Source of the DNA: an uncultured Thermogutta sp.
Lineage (GTDB): Bacteria; Planctomycetota; Planctomycetia; Pirellulales; Thermoguttaceae
Length of the DNA: 39,551 nt
Assembly (NCBI GenBank): GCA_937128505.1
Contig: CAKZMM010000076.1
Location: 1 to 39,551 of the forward strand
Direction: 5' to 3'
The translations under genes were made by a program, and so were the position numbers. This document shows, in pieces, positions 933-7,758 of the stretch. Under the pieces are notes generated by a model, which was given only the letters and a program-made list of their open reading frames with translations, did not search any database and was not told where the DNA came from. Each line of letters opens with the position of its first letter. Positions within the stretch are counted from its first letter, which is position 1.

Positions 933-1233
933 CCCACCATCATACCACTTCTCCATGCTTCCAAGCCATTTGATTTTGGCACAAGTTTTGGTGCATCCGA
1001 GACTTGGTCTAGACCAGCATTGGCCCGGGCAAATCCGGGAACGCTAGCGCGGCCCTCGGTAGCCTTACAGTTTGTGCAAGACCGGAGCAAAATGAAATCG
1101 GAAAAATCGCCGGCTACAGCTCGGTAAGAGCCGCTTAAGGAGTTCCCGAAGTCAAAGTCCGTGAGAGCCTAAGATCAGGCAAGTGGGGTGGTTCTCAAGC
1201 CAAGCAGCCTGCCCGCCAAAAAGGAGCCAAATC

Positions 1234-2814
1234 ATGTCTCAGAAACGCCGATTGCTGGTCGTTGACGACGAACAAGTGATCTGCCAGGCCTGCCGGAGAA
1301 TTTTTACTCGGCAAGGATTTGAAGTTGAGGAAAGCACTGATCCCCGACGCGGCCTCACGATGGCCCGCGAGGGTCATTACGACATCATCCTGCTGGATAT
1401 CAAGATGCCGGTGATGGACGGCATCGAATTTTTGGAAAAACTCCGCGAGACCAAGCCGGACCTACCCGTGCTCATTATGACCGGCTACCCGAGCATTCCC
1501 AATGCCGCGGCAGCTATCCGGTTGGGTGCCTCGGACTACATTACGAAGCCTTTCAGCCCTGAAGAGATTACCCAAGCGGTGCAACGGGTTTTGACTCAGC
1601 GGGGTCAGGCTGCGGCGGAGCCTGAGGTAGCACCGGCGGAAGAGGGAACACTGGCCGCGGAGCCTTTCTGGTTCTATGACCAGGCATGGTTCCAGCTCGA
1701 GCCGGACGGTTCGGCGTGCCTCGGGGTTTTAATGCCGGGCTTGAAAGCAGAAAACTTGCGGTCCGTGCAGCTTCCCAAAATCGGCGAGGTTGTATACCAG
1801 GGGCTTCCCTTGGCAGCGATCCACACTTCGGATGGGCCGCCGCGGATGGTGCTTGCGCCACTTTCCGGGGTGGTGGCGGCCATCAATGAAAATCTGCTGA
1901 AGGATCCAACGCTCGTGGCAAGCGATCCGTGCAACAGCGGCTGGTTGACTTGCCTGTGCACGACCCGATTCGAGGAAGAGTTGAGTCATTGTCGCCGGCA
2001 TCGGGTGCTGCTATTGAATCCGAACGAGTCGGTCGCTCAACAGCAGGCGGAAAAACTCACGCGTCTGGGTTGCGAAGTGCGCGTCAGTCGCTGTTTGGAG
2101 GAGCTTTCCTGGGCCGGGGAAAGACCGGAAGAGACCATCGTCATGCTCGATGCCGCTGCCTTTGGTGCGGCGGGTTCCTCGACGGTCGGCCAGATCAATC
2201 TCGCGGCTCCGCAGCTTCGCGTTGTGGTGGTCGCGCCGGCTAGTGGGCCGTGGGAGTCGGAGTACCGAAAACACCGCATTTTCTACTACGCGGTGGCACC
2301 CTTCGCGGATAACGAAATCGTGGAAATCCTCGATGCGGCCTTCCGCCACGTCGAGCCTCATGTGCGGCCCACCGAGAAATTCAAAAAAGTTCCGTCCGAG
2401 CCTCTGGCAGGGATCTCGATCACCAACCGCAACGGCCATAAGGTCTATTTGATGGCGGCTCCGGGCCTGCTGCGCCGCGATGAGGGCCTGGGAGGGCTCA
2501 TCCGACAGAAACTCATCGACATGATGTTCCCCATTGTGGCCACCCCCGGCAATGTGCCGATCACCCCTTCGAATCTCCTCAAAGCCGCCAGCAAATACGA
2601 CCGGTTGATGGTGCTGGTGGCCAAGGATATCGGTCGACTGCCGGGCAGCCTGGCGCGCGATACCAAGGCGGAAATTTCTGCCCCCGGCGAAGGTTCGGCC
2701 AAGATCACCACTCTGGAAGTGCAGCCGGATGCGATCGGCGGTTTGGACGGATTGGATCATCGGGTAACGCAGGCTTTAGCCGAGCATATCGTCCGCGAGA
2801 TGGCCTCGTACTAA
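1234..2814 (+). CDS. Receiver / GcvH-like / receiver-like fusion protein
   Basis: A 526-residue protein of unusual architecture. Residues 5-120 are a receiver domain with the acidic pair D11-D12, phospho-acceptor D55, T83 and K105 in TKP, so it is probably phosphorylatable. Residues about 148-248 match the glycine cleavage H protein fold (PKIGEVVYQG, then APLSGVVAAINENLL, then a NSGW-type end). The lipoyl-lysine site is gone, however: the segment before APLSG reads HTSDGPPRMVL, with no lysine. Residues about 256-372 look like a second, degenerate receiver, and 385-526 is a domain I do not recognise. There is no DNA-binding output domain and no kinase gene nearby. The start was chosen at ATG 1234 because GGAG lies 7-8 nt upstream; an in-frame GTG at 1183 has no such site. 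Position just ahead of hdrC suggests a role with the Hdr complex (inference). The last codons and the stop lie in a 22-bp duplication. Confidence 0.85.
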   Translation: MSQKRRLLVVDDEQVICQACRRIFTRQGFEVEESTDPRRGLTMAREGHYDIILLDIKMPVMDGIEFLEKLRETKPDLPVLIMTGYPSIPNAAAAIRLGASDYITKPFSPEEITQAVQRVLTQRGQAAAEPEVAPAEEGTLAAEPFWFYDQAWFQLEPDGSACLGVLMPGLKAENLRSVQLPKIGEVVYQGLPLAAIHTSDGPPRMVLAPLSGVVAAINENLLKDPTLVASDPCNSGWLTCLCTTRFEEELSHCRRHRVLLLNPNESVAQQQAEKLTRLGCEVRVSRCLEELSWAGERPEETIVMLDAAAFGAAGSSTVGQINLAAPQLRVVVVAPASGPWESEYRKHRIFYYAVAPFADNEIVEILDAAFRHVEPHVRPTEKFKKVPSEPLAGISITNRNGHKVYLMAAPGLLRRDEGLGGLIRQKLIDMMFPIVATPGNVPITPSNLLKAASKYDRLMVLVAKDIGRLPGSLARDTKAEISAPGEGSAKITTLEVQPDAIGGLDGLDHRVTQALAEHIVREMASY

Positions 2815-3084: not shown

Positions 3085-3654
3085 ATGATTCAGTTTTCGA
3101 CCGATCGTCGACCCAGTTTCCTGAAGGAAGTCATCGAGCATACGCCCCGCGGTGAACGACTGGTGCACTGCATTCAATGCGGCAGTTGCGGCGGTTCGTG
3201 CCCCAACGGAGCCGATATGCAATACTCACCCAGGGCCCTCTTTGCCCTTATTCAGGCGGACCAGCGTGATACGGTGCTTTCGGCCAACACGATGTGGTGC
3301 TGTGTTTCGTGCTACTACTGCACGACGCGGTGCCCACAACAGATCCCCATCACGGAGATCATGTACACGCTCAAGCGGCTGGCCATCCGCGAAGGTTCCG
3401 CTCGAAACACCGACGCACCCGCCTTGGCCCAAACGTTTACCCGTTATCTCGACGCGTATGGCCGAAGTTTCGAGTTCGGGTTGGCCAGCCGCTTTTACTT
3501 GTTCAACAAGCCTTTGGCGATGCTCAAGATGGGACCGCTGGGACTTTCGCTTTTCACGCGGGGTCGAATGTCCCTACGACCCACCCGCATCAAAAACATT
3601 CAGCAGCTTCAGGCGATCATTCAAAAAGCCAAACAGTTGGGAGATGAACCGTGA
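3085..3654 (+). CDS. hdrC: Heterodisulfide reductase subunit C-like ferredoxin protein
   Basis: A 189-residue HdrC-type protein carrying two cubane [4Fe-4S] cluster motifs, C29-x2-C32-x2-C35-x3-C39-P and C73-x2-C76-x2-C79-x3-C83-P. In HdrABC complexes HdrC relays electrons between HdrA and the catalytic HdrB. ATG 3085 is preferred, with GGAG 10 nt upstream, over an in-frame TTG at 3058. The stop overlaps the GTG start of hdrB by four bases (GTGA), so the two are translationally coupled. Cytoplasmic; no membrane segment is visible, so this is not the membrane HdrE/DsrM type. Confidence 0.9.
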   Translation: MIQFSTDRRPSFLKEVIEHTPRGERLVHCIQCGSCGGSCPNGADMQYSPRALFALIQADQRDTVLSANTMWCCVSCYYCTTRCPQQIPITEIMYTLKRLAIREGSARNTDAPALAQTFTRYLDAYGRSFEFGLASRFYLFNKPLAMLKMGPLGLSLFTRGRMSLRPTRIKNIQQLQAIIQKAKQLGDEP

Positions 3655-4535
3655 GATACGCCTACTATCCTGGCTGCTCGTTGGAGTGTAGCAGCGCGGC
3701 GTACGATATGTCGATTCGCGCCGTGTGCGATTTGCTTGGTATACAACTCGAAGAGATTGACGATTGGAATTGCTGTGGGGCGACCGAGTATCACTCCCTC
3801 CACAAATTGACGGCCTGCGCCGTGATCGCGCGGAATTTGGCTCTGGTGGATTCGCGCCTCAACCAGGTGGTAGCTCCCTGCGCTGCCTGCTATCTGAATC
3901 TGAAGAAAGTGGATCGGCAAATGGCGGAAAACCCACGACTGGCCGAGAAAATCAACGAAGCCCTGGCGGCCGGCGGCCTCCATTACGATGGAGGTCGGGT
4001 TCGCGTTCGCCATCTGGTGGATGTGCTCCACACCGATCTGGGTGAAAAAGCCATCCGCGACAAGGTGGTCCGCCCCTTAAAGGGCCTCAAGGTAGCCCCG
4101 TACTACGGCTGCCAAGTCGTCCGCCCTTATAACGACTTCGACAATACCGAGTACCCCATGAAACTCGATGAGTTGGTTTCCTGGCTCGGGGCGGAGCCGG
4201 TCCCCTACCCCCTAAAAGCCGCCTGCTGTGGGGGGCACATGACCCAAATTAGCGAGGCACAAGCCTTCGAATTGATTCGCCGGCTCTTGCAATCCGCGGT
4301 GGATAGCTATGCGGACTTAATCCTCTGCATGTGCCCGATGTGTCAACTGAACCTCGATGCCTATCAGAGTCAGGTCAACAGTTACTTCGGCCTTAGTTTC
4401 CGGATGCCGATCCTGTTCTTCACCCAGATCGTCGGTCTAGCGTTTGGGTTGGAACCCAACGCCCTGGGGATCGGCAAGGAAATTGTTTCCGCCCAACCGG
4501 TTCTTCAGCGCCGCTTGGCGGCCGTCACGCAATAG
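3651..4535 (+). CDS. hdrB: Heterodisulfide reductase subunit B-like, CCG domains
   Basis: A 294-residue protein with two cysteine-rich CCG domains. The first carries YPGCSLE near the N-terminus, then CCGATEY and CAACYLNL; the second carries YYGCQV, ACCGGHM and CMCPMCQLNL. In characterised HdrB these cysteines hold noncubane [4Fe-4S] clusters that reduce a disulfide substrate. The actual substrate here is unknown, because planctomycetes do not make CoM-S-S-CoB. Start is GTG 3651, overlapping the hdrC stop, with GGGAG about 8 nt upstream inside hdrC. Length and cysteine spacing are normal for the family. Confidence 0.92.
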   Translation: MRYAYYPGCSLECSSAAYDMSIRAVCDLLGIQLEEIDDWNCCGATEYHSLHKLTACAVIARNLALVDSRLNQVVAPCAACYLNLKKVDRQMAENPRLAEKINEALAAGGLHYDGGRVRVRHLVDVLHTDLGEKAIRDKVVRPLKGLKVAPYYGCQVVRPYNDFDNTEYPMKLDELVSWLGAEPVPYPLKAACCGGHMTQISEAQAFELIRRLLQSAVDSYADLILCMCPMCQLNLDAYQSQVNSYFGLSFRMPILFFTQIVGLAFGLEPNALGIGKEIVSAQPVLQRRLAAVTQ

Positions 4536-4944: not shown

Positions 4945-6993
4945 ATGGCCGAGAGAATCGGCGTGTACATTTGCCACTGCGGTAGCAACATCGCCGGCAC
5001 GATCGACGTGGCGGAAGTGGCCCGCTGGGCCGGCGAAAACCTGGAAGATGTCGTCGTCGCGAAGGACTACAAATTCATGTGCTCTTCCTCGGGCCAACAG
5101 ATGATCGAGGAAGACATCAAGAAGGAGAATTTGACCCGTGTCGTCGTGGCGGCGTGCTCGCCCCAACTCCATGAGAAGACTTTCCGCTGGGCTTGCGAAA
5201 ATGCAGGCCTCAATCGCTACCTTTTCCAAATGGCCAATATCCGCGAGCACATCTCCTGGGTCACGAGCGACAAACTGGCAGCCACGCGGAAAGCTAAGGC
5301 GATGGTGGCCGCGGCCGTGCAGCGCGTCCGGTGGCAAAAACCGCTGAAACCTCTTCCCGTGGAGGTCAACCCCCGCACGCTGGTGGTCGGTGGTGGTATC
5401 GCCGGTTTGCAGGCCACGTTGGAACTGGCGGATGCCGGCTTCCCAGTGATCCTCGTGGAGCGGGAACCTTCTATCGGTGGCCACATGGCACAATTCGACA
5501 AGACCTTTCCCACGCTCGATTGCTCCGCATGCATCCTCACGCCGAAGATGAGCGAAGTCGGTCAGCACGAGAACGTCACCCTGTTGAGTTATTCGGAATT
5601 AGAAGAGGTCAGCGGCTCGGTCGGCAACTTCAAGGTAAAGATCCGCAAACGCGCGCGTTATGTCCGCGAAGACCGCTGCACCGGCTGCGGGATTTGCGTG
5701 GAAAAGTGCCCCACGAAGGTGGTCGACGACGTTTTCGAGGCCGGCTTGGGCAAGCGCAAAGGCATTTATATCCCCTTCGCCCAAGCGGTCCCACGGATCC
5801 CGGTAATCGATACCGATAATTGCATCTGGTTCCGCCGCGGCAAATGCCAGGTCTGTAGCAAGGTCTGCCCGACCGATGCCATCGACTACGATCAGCAGGA
5901 TCAAATCCTGGAATTCACGGTGGGCAACATCATCTTGGCCACCGGGTGGAAGATGTTCGATGCTCGGCGAATACCGCAATATGGCTACGGCCGGCTTCCG
6001 AACGTCTTTACCGCCTTGGAATTCGAGCGGATGTGCAACGCTGCCGGACCGACGGGCGGCCGCATCGTCCTGCGCGACGGCAAGACCGAGCCGCGATCGA
6101 TCGGCATCATTCACTGCGTGGGTAGTCGCGACGTCAATTTCAACGAATACTGCTCCGGTATCTGCTGCATGGCCGCCCTGAAATTCGGCCATCTGGTGCT
6201 GGAAAAGACGAATGCCGAAGTCTACTCATTTTATATCGACATGCGGACCAACCAAAAGGGCTATGAGGAGTTCTATCAACGCCTCCTGCACGAGGGGATG
6301 AAGTTTATCCGCGGTAAGGTCGCCGAAGTCACGAATGCCGACCGCACCGAAGCGGAGCAGGGGCGGCTGATCGTCCAAGTTGAAGACACCCTCCTTGGCC
6401 GCCAGCGGCGAATCCCCGTCGATATGGTCATTCTCATGGGTGCCCTGGAACCCCAGGAAGATGCCAAGGAAACCGCCCGAAAATGCGGCATTTCGTGCTC
6501 TTTGGCCGGTTGGTTCACGGAACGACACCCGAAGCTTGACCCCGTAGCCACCATGACCGAAGGGGTCTTTGTGGCCGGGGCTTGCCAGGGGCCGAAAGAC
6601 ATCCCGGCTGCCGTGGCTCAAGGTGCCGCGGCTGCTGCGCGGGTGGCCGGCATGATCAGCAAAGGCACCGTCTGGATCGAGCCGATCGTCGCCTCCATTG
6701 ATGAAGCGGCTTGCTCCGGGTGCCGCATCTGTAACAATCTCTGCCCGTTCAATGCGATCGAATTCCTCGCAGATAAGAACTTAAGCCGCATTATTACGGC
6801 CCTTTGCAAAGGTTGCGGTACTTGTGTGGCAGCTTGCCCGGCCGGGGCGATCACCGGGGCTCACTTCACCAACCAACAGATTCTTGCCGAGCTGGAAGGT
6901 GCCCTTTGGGACGCCCAATGCGAGGGGATTGCCGGCGAAGTCCAGCCGGCCGAACTCCCGATTTTACCGCGCCGGCAAGCCATCCCGGCCTAA
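4945..6993 (+). CDS. hdrA: Heterodisulfide reductase subunit A, FAD/iron-sulfur
   Basis: A 682-residue HdrA, the flavin subunit where electron bifurcation occurs in HdrABC complexes. The N-terminal region has ICHCGSNI (C10, C12) and FMCSSSGQ. A Rossmann FAD motif, VVGGGIAGLQA, lies near residue 148. An inserted ferredoxin pair follows: C245-TGCGICVEKCP, and a second with C293 and CQVCSKVCP. A C-terminal pair begins at C590 (CSGCRICNNLCP) and C621 (CKGCGTCVAACP). All the cluster cysteines expected for a full-length HdrA are present as cysteine, with no in-frame TGA. ATG 4945 follows GGGAGG with 7-8 nt spacing. Likely partners are the adjacent HdrB, HdrC and MvhD-like proteins. No hydrogenase, formate dehydrogenase or Flox subunits are encoded in the window. 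Confidence 0.95.
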   Translation: MAERIGVYICHCGSNIAGTIDVAEVARWAGENLEDVVVAKDYKFMCSSSGQQMIEEDIKKENLTRVVVAACSPQLHEKTFRWACENAGLNRYLFQMANIREHISWVTSDKLAATRKAKAMVAAAVQRVRWQKPLKPLPVEVNPRTLVVGGGIAGLQATLELADAGFPVILVEREPSIGGHMAQFDKTFPTLDCSACILTPKMSEVGQHENVTLLSYSELEEVSGSVGNFKVKIRKRARYVREDRCTGCGICVEKCPTKVVDDVFEAGLGKRKGIYIPFAQAVPRIPVIDTDNCIWFRRGKCQVCSKVCPTDAIDYDQQDQILEFTVGNIILATGWKMFDARRIPQYGYGRLPNVFTALEFERMCNAAGPTGGRIVLRDGKTEPRSIGIIHCVGSRDVNFNEYCSGICCMAALKFGHLVLEKTNAEVYSFYIDMRTNQKGYEEFYQRLLHEGMKFIRGKVAEVTNADRTEAEQGRLIVQVEDTLLGRQRRIPVDMVILMGALEPQEDAKETARKCGISCSLAGWFTERHPKLDPVATMTEGVFVAGACQGPKDIPAAVAQGAAAAARVAGMISKGTVWIEPIVASIDEAACSGCRICNNLCPFNAIEFLADKNLSRIITALCKGCGTCVAACPAGAITGAHFTNQQILAELEGALWDAQCEGIAGEVQPAELPILPRRQAIPA

Positions 6994-7099: not shown

Positions 7100-7260
7100 A
7101 ATGCCTACTTCCGAAGAAGGGATCCGTTTCGTTTTACAAAATCGAGGCCACGTAAAACACAAACGGTTGGGACTTACTGCAAAAAAAACCAATCGCCTTT
7201 TGATAAATGAAACCGATGAGCATTTGATCGCGTTTGCGGAGGGAAGCGGAGCAAACCTCG

Positions 7261-7758
7261 ATGAGTAATGACGCCCATTTCGAGCCGCGTATCGTCGGAT
7301 TTTTTTGCAACTGGTGCTCTTACCGCGCTGCCGATCTGGCAGGCACGGCGCGGATTAAGCACGCCACAAGTGTCCGGATCATCCGCGCCATGTGCAGCGG
7401 TCGCATCGACCCGATGTTCGTCCTGAAAGCTTTCGCCTTGGGCGCCGATGGGGTGATGATCGCCGGGTGTCATCCAGGGGATTGTCACTACCTGGAACAA
7501 AACTATAAAACCATGCGGCGCTATGCCCTACTCAAGTACACGCTCGCCGAGTTGGGGATCGAAGAGGACCGCCTGCGGCTGGTTTGGGCTTCGGCGGCCG
7601 AAGGGCCACAACTTGCCCAAGCCATCGACCATTTTGTGGAGTGGGTCCGCCAGTTGGGGCCGCTCCGTTGGTCGCGCAATTGGGAAGAACGCCAGCGGGA
7701 AAAGGCCATCGAGCAAATCGCGCACGAGCACGCCGAAGCCCTCGAAGTCCCCGTGTAA
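7261..7758 (+). CDS. mvhD: MvhD/FlpD-type [2Fe-2S] electron-transfer subunit
   Basis: A 165-residue protein of the methyl-viologen-reducing hydrogenase delta subunit family. Conserved cysteines are seen in FFCNWCSYRAAD, CSGRIDP and GCHPGDCHY, the set that binds the [2Fe-2S] cluster in MvhD/FlpD. In methanogen complexes this subunit carries electrons from a hydrogenase or formate dehydrogenase to HdrA. Here it is encoded 267 bp after hdrA but without a recognisable donor enzyme. ATG 7261 was chosen because GGAG lies 9 nt upstream; a GTG at 7234 is the alternative. Confidence 0.9.
   Translation: MSNDAHFEPRIVGFFCNWCSYRAADLAGTARIKHATSVRIIRAMCSGRIDPMFVLKAFALGADGVMIAGCHPGDCHYLEQNYKTMRRYALLKYTLAELGIEEDRLRLVWASAAEGPQLAQAIDHFVEWVRQLGPLRWSRNWEERQREKAIEQIAHEHAEALEVPV

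Follow-up and report, generated by a model that had tools for sequence, protein, structure and literature searches.

The bacterial protein that we denote RGR combines, within 526 amino acids, a receiver, a GcvH-like domain, a degenerate second receiver and a domain with a HycI-like predicted fold, and we estimate with a probability of about 0.58 that it is a receiver-controlled accessory subunit of electron-bifurcating complexes, namely HdrCBA-MvhD in the window (the whole 39,551-nucleotide contig of an uncultured Thermogutta sp. analyzed here) and also HydABC in relatives. The basis for this reading is the domain make-up, the degeneracy of the domains, the linkage to Hdr and Hyd genes, the gene fusions, the NtrC neighbors and the sigma-54-like sites, from which we infer phosphorylation of RGR by a kinase, binding to HdrC or HydC and an effect on electron flow. 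The relevant features of the window are listed in Table 1.

Table 1. Coordinates of RGR, its parts and the adjacent features in the window.
Feature	Positions	Strand	Residues	Evidence
Sigma-54-like site, weak	977..992	+		TGGCAC-N5-TTGGT; 257 bases before ATG; score 24 of 28.5, shuffle p 0.04
Four-part gene RGR	1234..2814	+	526 aa	Receiver / GcvH-like / degenerate receiver / HycI-like
Receiver 1	1240..1608	+	aa 3-125	PF00072 1.2e-33; D11, D12, D55, T83, K105
GcvH-like domain	1666..2007	+	aa 145-258	PF01597 2e-9; ESxK lipoylation motif absent
Receiver 2, degenerate	1999..2349	+	aa 256-372	hhalign to receiver 1
Domain 4	2389..2811	+	aa 386-526	Predicted fold nearest HycI/HybD
hdrC	3085..3654	+		TIGR03290 1.6e-22, below its cut-off
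hdrB	3651..4535	+		TIGR03288 3.5e-59, below its cut-off
hdrA (HdrA2 type)	4945..6993	+		NF040770 4.3e-247, below its cut-off
mvhD	7261..7758	+		First ATG 7261, ORF from TTG at 7234; PF02662 2.6e-49 (ORF 7234-7758)

The open reading frame of RGR extends from a GTG at position 1183, and the ATG at 1234 is preceded by a Shine-Dalgarno-like AAGGAG at 1221-1226, so the gene bounds proposed in an earlier note on this DNA are correct. By eye, no convincing gene is apparent up to position 1182, and the contig starts with repeated CTGTGCTTCG-like units (positions 1-130). The Pfam and hhalign comparisons confirmed the architecture that this note had proposed, a receiver followed by a GcvH-like domain, a receiver-like domain and an additional domain, and this architecture is not a chance occurrence because it is represented by 19 further full-length or near-full-length rows, at 31-61% identity. 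Past GCV_H, the window protein has no Pfam match above the cut-off, and neither a DNA-binding nor an AAA+ output domain of the NtrC or OmpR kinds was detected by Pfam at E values up to 1, in agreement with the absence of a DNA-binding output noted previously. The AlphaFold model of the full-length protein has a pLDDT of 85.1; the fold search with this model was filled by receiver matches and thereby probed the receivers rather than the other parts. The PHROGs matches comprised six families of unknown function, all on the receiver stretch, and among the at least 5000 records listed in a plasmid search, none covered 80% of the query.

Receiver 1 possesses all the features by which a receiver is recognized (the PF00072 profile, with a Response_reg match above the Pfam cut-off, the acidic pair, the phospho-Asp, the Thr/Ser and the Lys), and its structural match in VIA has a Z score of 22.9 (3crn). 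The active residues are conserved across the family (D11 in 20/20 rows, D12, D55 and T83 in 20/21 each, and K105 in 21/22), in counts that include the row of locus L062, which has no receiver, is represented by upstream residues from outside the gene with two stops as X, and is presumably the odd row. These residues are consistent with the phosphorylatable receiver postulated at the outset. Receiver 2, previously described only as receiver-like, is a true but degenerate receiver: hhalign of receiver 1 against receiver 2 yields an E value of 8.5e-9 with a probability of 96%, and 0/60 column shuffles score as high. In receiver 2, the acidic pair is altered and the Lys is lost; D306 is invariant (24/24), and residue 355, which precedes the invariant Pro356 and occupies the place of the Lys, is E in 18 of the 24 copies.

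The middle domain matches the GCV_H profile with 37.8 bits against a cut-off of 22.2, consistent with its initial assignment to the GcvH fold. In the window protein, the column of the lipoyl lysine contains G, and the ESxK motif is missing in all 22 RGR orthologs compared, 11 of which still carry a lysine in this column; in canonical GcvH, used as a yardstick, the lipoyl lysine is present in 8/8. The earlier statement that the domain cannot be lipoylated is therefore safe for the window protein, with its G and lack of ESxK, but does not extend to the whole family.

Domain 4 was originally described as an unknown domain, and indeed, Pfam assigns no family to the window copy and, over 24 copies, yields nothing beyond weak matches to individual members (best E 0.016), but its predicted fold is nearest to HycI/HybD. 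Modeled alone (AlphaFold pLDDT 92.9, pTM 0.88), it gives HycI of Thermococcus (5zby) as the Foldseek match of rank 1 (probability 0.98, E 3.6e-3, TM 0.46, rmsd 7.1), with more HycI/HybD entries at ranks 6, 8, 10, 12 and 16, PIH1 domains at ranks 2-5 (TM 0.21-0.27), and none of the matches reaching E 0.001. In VIA, where Z scores below 8 may reflect merely a common arrangement, HycI/HybD (Z 6.5 to 5ttx and 6.2 to 1cfz) ties with N-acetylmuramoyl amidases (6.7) and peptidyl-tRNA hydrolase (Pth; 6.0), so the model makes HycI/HybD the likeliest family, not a proven one. At the sequence level, the hhalign comparison with HycI from relatives (13 sequences) gives an E value of 0.021 with a probability of 2%, a score reached in 1/150 column shuffles, and hmmsearch against the PDB gives a best E value of 0.2, to unrelated proteins. 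With such weak sequence and fold statistics, the HycI assignment draws on the Foldseek ranking and on a motif resemblance spotted by eye before the fold search. Domain 4 may resemble the HycI/HybD [NiFe]-hydrogenase maturation endopeptidases (PF01750) in its predicted fold and in this motif, and differs from them in the lack of a significant sequence match and in the position of D62, which we take to be a metal ligand of HycI/HybD. The D62-type aspartate is invariant in the 13 HycI family members of relatives, whereas its equivalent in domain 4, as placed by a weak alignment, is L, M, T, V, K or Q in 24/24 copies.

RGR is found in 28 distinct loci, 27 of them in the phylum of the window and one in an Oligoflexia bin. 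Of these, 24 come from a set of 60 relatives together with a scan of genome contigs, and four (L171, L172, L174 and L175) from a survey of the order. Copies, full or partial, that extend past the receiver are present in 13 of the 60 relatives, including the genome of the window. The contig scan recovered 21 loci, 19 planctomycete, one labeled Nealsonbacteria and one from the Oligoflexia bin; the Nealsonbacteria-labeled contig is identical to that of a relative (G018), and the 10 scan loci that duplicate contigs of the 60 relatives were counted once. In the order survey, 25 of the 396 genomes match at E 1e-60, including one (G004) over the receiver only and another (G776) from a different family; by coordinates, seven of these genomes duplicate scan loci, and L173 is the same as L062. 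Across 392 genomes of the phylum, the profile from GcvH to the end matches over its full length in two (that of the window and G024), and the receiver-GcvH pair is found at E 1e-55 in seven.

In the window, hdrC, hdrB, hdrA and mvhD follow RGR on the same strand, as was originally noted, with NCBIfam matches for the three hdr genes that are strong yet under the curated cut-offs. The next gene read past mvhD encodes a DUF6655 protein, there is no match to a [NiFe] subunit in the window, and the same genome has a second hdr-mvh locus on another contig (C29). In 15 of the 28 loci, RGR is followed on the same strand, at a distance of no more than 10 kb, by an Hdr or [FeFe]-hydrogenase (Hyd) gene. 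These are 13 of the first 24 (11 Hdr, 2 Hyd) and two of the four added by the order survey, L171 and L175, both with hdrCBA-mvhD. Of the other two, L172 lacks such a gene and L174 is truncated by the end of its contig. Setting aside four loci with less than 1 kb downstream and no match (L041, L043, L051 and L174) leaves 15 of 24. The expectation by chance, calculated simply from 2-3 hdr loci per approximately 5 Mb, is roughly 1%, and the orthologs are far above it (11/24 loci, plus L171 and L175), which answers the question of whether orthologs are scattered irrespective of hdr. Nevertheless, nine of the 24 informative loci (L034, L035, L038, L040, L042, L050, L052, L057 and L172) lack a co-directional Hdr or Hyd gene in the 7.4-11.6 kb downstream. 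Two of these, L034 and L050, are the nearest kin of the window in the tree; another, L038, has HydC- and Fe-hydrogenase-like matches upstream on the opposite strand.

In L037, L058, L060, L062 and L063, the partner genes are separated from RGR by 18-99 bp. The partner HdrAs are 77-78%, 55-58% or about 46% identical to that of the window, and in L039, the partner is hydC-hydB-hydA instead of Hdr. On a tree of 25 RGR copies (L042, L045 and L174 excluded; the long branches of L069, L039 and L040 not trusted), the four classes of partners require 5 changes, compared to a minimum of 3 and a mean of 7.8 after shuffling; the linkage therefore reappears with different kinds of enzyme, even though related rows group together. 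Hdr and Hyd can also occur in one locus: in L171 (contig C237 of G504), RGR is followed by hdrCBA-mvhD, and the region upstream of NtrC contains divergently oriented hydC- and hydB-like genes. At the level of genomes, an HdrA at least 70% identical to that of the window is encoded in 12/13 genomes with RGR versus 6/24 without it (Fisher p 1e-4, kinship ignored), whereas for any HdrA, the counts are 12/13 and 18/24 (p 0.38, not significant, kinship likewise ignored); the one RGR-bearing genome without an HdrA match, G018, is 81% complete. The first of these correlations supports an accessory subunit, whereas the any-HdrA test does not.

An NtrC-type gene is located within 5 kb upstream of RGR in 17 of the 28 loci (on the opposite strand in L058), and 14 of the 17 also show an upstream kinase match; in L034, the kinase consists of Cache, HAMP, HisKA and HATPase domains. 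Given that the window is the entire contig (C76), the region upstream of RGR is known for 1.2 kb, and no kinase or NtrC gene is found in this stretch, up to the contig end; orthologs of the kinase (59%) and of NtrC (65%) are encoded on two other contigs of the same genome, C82 and C144, respectively. Sigma-54-like sites scoring at least 25 of 28.5 precede RGR in 20 of the 24 loci scanned (17/21 and 3/3), a set without L042, L044 and L045, in which the gene start is missing, and without L174; the lower scores are those of L036, L040, L062 and the window. Among 1632 control stretches of 400 bp from 18 of the sources, with both strands scanned and the positives included, this score was reached in 62. 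Together, the upstream NtrC genes and sigma-54-like sites suggest that the RGR protein is normally an output of the NtrC/sigma-54 system rather than its DNA-binding regulator. A histidine kinase is encoded in L039 (5290-7392, minus strand; homolog in L038/L066), divergently from the NtrC-RGR pair and, by eye, near an nqrA-like gene. It joins an [FeFe]-hydrogenase-like sensor part with 4Fe-4S motifs (PF02906 8e-49) to HisKA/HATPase and is likely a cytoplasmic redox or H2 sensor.

Two gene fusions connect this kind of module with Fe-S subunits. In the Oligoflexia locus L069, a 757-aa in-frame ORF contains the four RGR parts followed by a HydC-like [2Fe-2S] domain (PF01257 2.5e-45, residues 589-732); a HydB-like gene begins 4 bases further on and is succeeded by genes for an [FeFe]-hydrogenase (PF02906 4.2e-98) and, at a greater distance, a radical-SAM protein. 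In G098, a distant member of the phylum of the window, a 455-aa ORF combines a receiver and GcvH with an HdrC-like ferredoxin (PF01597 7.9e-24, Fer4_8 1.3e-10), within the gene order kinase, NtrC, receiver-GcvH, fusion, HdrA-like, MvhD-like and a gene product that, by eye, is a formate dehydrogenase. Each fusion comes from one assembly, where an in-frame reading could conceal a lost stop; with the same kind of module attached to Fe-S subunits of two bifurcating enzymes, the fusions are the strongest hint of a role at the protein level, and for this reason we favor the receiver-controlled accessory subunit. The original proposal, a protein-level regulator or scaffold of an Hdr complex, is accordingly supported in part, by the hdr linkage and the HdrC-like and HydC fusions; full support is withheld because of the nine informative loci without Hdr or Hyd, including the nearest kin. 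The partner, moreover, is not Hdr alone, given the HydABC-type [FeFe]-hydrogenase genes in L039 and L069.

Under this reading, a sensor histidine kinase that responds to an outside cue or to redox would phosphorylate both the NtrC-type activator and the receiver of RGR, and phosphorylated NtrC would switch on the operon through sigma-54. The GcvH-like domain, receiver 2 and the HycI-like domain, apparently devoid of their original chemistry, would act together as a docking module for HdrC or HydC, the Fe-S subunit that transfers electrons, and phosphorylation would alter this contact and thereby change the electron flow through the complex or its assembly. Bifurcating enzymes may thus be switched directly by phosphorylation in cells. 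A bolder version, which we put forward tentatively and consider somewhat doubtful, is phospho-gating of electron flow within seconds, whereby the RGR family, composed of inactive copies of a lipoyl carrier, receiver and hydrogenase maturation protease, docks to HdrC or HydC of different bifurcating enzymes and NtrC sets the amount of the enzyme.

Some of the same evidence fits a role as a phosphate sink or connector, in which the receiver would draw phosphoryl groups off the kinase and thereby tune NtrC, with the remaining domains serving solely to stabilize the receiver and the hdr linkage reflecting the target operon of NtrC. Such a role is possible if unlikely: it agrees with the NtrC and kinase neighbors, with the intact residues of receiver 1 and with two receiver-only homologs outside the 28 loci, one of which (L046, with a stop after the receiver) precedes hdrCBA-mvhD and the other (L047) a NiFe hydrogenase set, but leaves unexplained the HydC fusion and the HdrC-like fusion of the two-part relative, the three further conserved domains, and L062, where the receiver is missing and the remaining parts are kept before hdrCBA-mvhDGA.

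RGR could also be an assembly or maturation factor, its HycI-like and GcvH-like domains chaperoning Fe-S or hydrogenase subunits in a phosphorylation-gated manner, a possibility to which we give little weight. The predicted fold of domain 4 points in this direction, as does the hycI homolog that adjoins hdr-mvh clusters in L169 and L170; against it are the lack of a NiFe subunit match in the window, the separate HycI kept in the same genome, the non-acidic D62 equivalent, and the ties of the fold match with other families. Less of a possibility than either the sink or the assembly factor, and in our view highly improbable, is a redox or sulfur carrier, as LbpA is thought to be, that brings electrons or sulfur to Hdr via cysteines. 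C233, C240, C242 and C253 of the GcvH-like domain are Cys in 15-19 of 23 rows and C17 and C20 of receiver helix 1 in 18 and 20 of 21 (with the L062 row included), and the lysine at the hairpin tip persists in 11 of the 22 orthologs compared. Yet C240, C242 and C253 are absent from the full-length L039, L040 and L069, and ESxK is lost in all 22, whereas the LbpA lysine is strictly kept (PMC6067878).

The genes of the HdrABC-MvhD(AG) and HydABC complexes lie directly downstream of RGR, and HydC and HdrC-like parts occur as fusion partners, the latter in the two-part relative. We know of no subunit with the make-up of RGR described for either complex, and to our knowledge, the control and steering of electron-bifurcating Hdr and Hyd complexes is a largely open question. 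A protein co-encoded with bifurcating enzymes and fused to HydC or HdrC-like parts in two assemblies offers a direct handle on the control of bifurcation, and if the bolder version above is true, two-component phosphorylation would be wired straight to flavin-based electron bifurcation. RGR also suggests that a docking module can be built by combining carrier, receiver and protease domains after the loss of their original chemistry. A practical caution is that a GcvH annotation next to hdr genes does not by itself imply a lipoyl carrier.

In the open-access literature (subscription papers being outside the scope), we found no description of the RGR architecture. The lipoate-binding proteins LbpA of the Hdr-like sulfur-oxidation pathway resemble RGR in that they are GcvH-like and encoded with hdr-type genes; RGR differs in the attached receiver and the absent ESxK (PMC6067878). 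LbpA is further defined by two conserved cysteines, one near each terminus. DVU2394 of Desulfovibrio vulgaris, a response regulator of an adh-hdr operon (PMC3333781), similarly places hdr genes under two-component control but acts at the DNA level, on the operon, in contrast to the protein-level partner proposed here. The hdr-mvhD loci of sulfate reducers are described in PMC2702500 and PMC5109826, and the locus descriptions in the excerpts of these papers include no RGR-type protein.

Simpler proteins with the same beginning exist as well. The two-part receiver-GcvH proteins (PF00072 and PF01597; G098, G182, G197, G226 and G280) resemble RGR in the succession of the receiver and GcvH-like domain and differ, in the copies read, in the lack of the second receiver and of domain 4; in the four aligned copies, the lysine column is not K, as in the window protein. 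In G182, G226, G197 and G280, a kinase adjoins the gene and there is no hdr match, in a region that in G280 spans only 3.9 kb. G098 further encodes a GcvH-like protein whose hairpin lysine is, by eye, retained (L104, 1837-2337, minus strand), with hdrA- and mvhD-like genes a few genes away, and a protein combining a receiver with a flavoprotein (L103, 2558-4375, plus strand; PF07992 3.9e-69) next to a receiver-GcvH gene and a kinase. The latter was considered as an E3-like enzyme and rejected, being NADH-oxidase/CoA-disulfide-reductase-like by eye, and interpretation of these genes as a lipoyl system was therefore dropped. Other GcvH-like proteins, in L077, L088 and L098 (G397, G280 and G358, respectively), carry a hydrophobic stretch at the N terminus and, as judged by eye, lack the hairpin lysine, and kinase and NtrC matches are found near those of G397 and G280 (L105 and L106, which cover L077 and L088).
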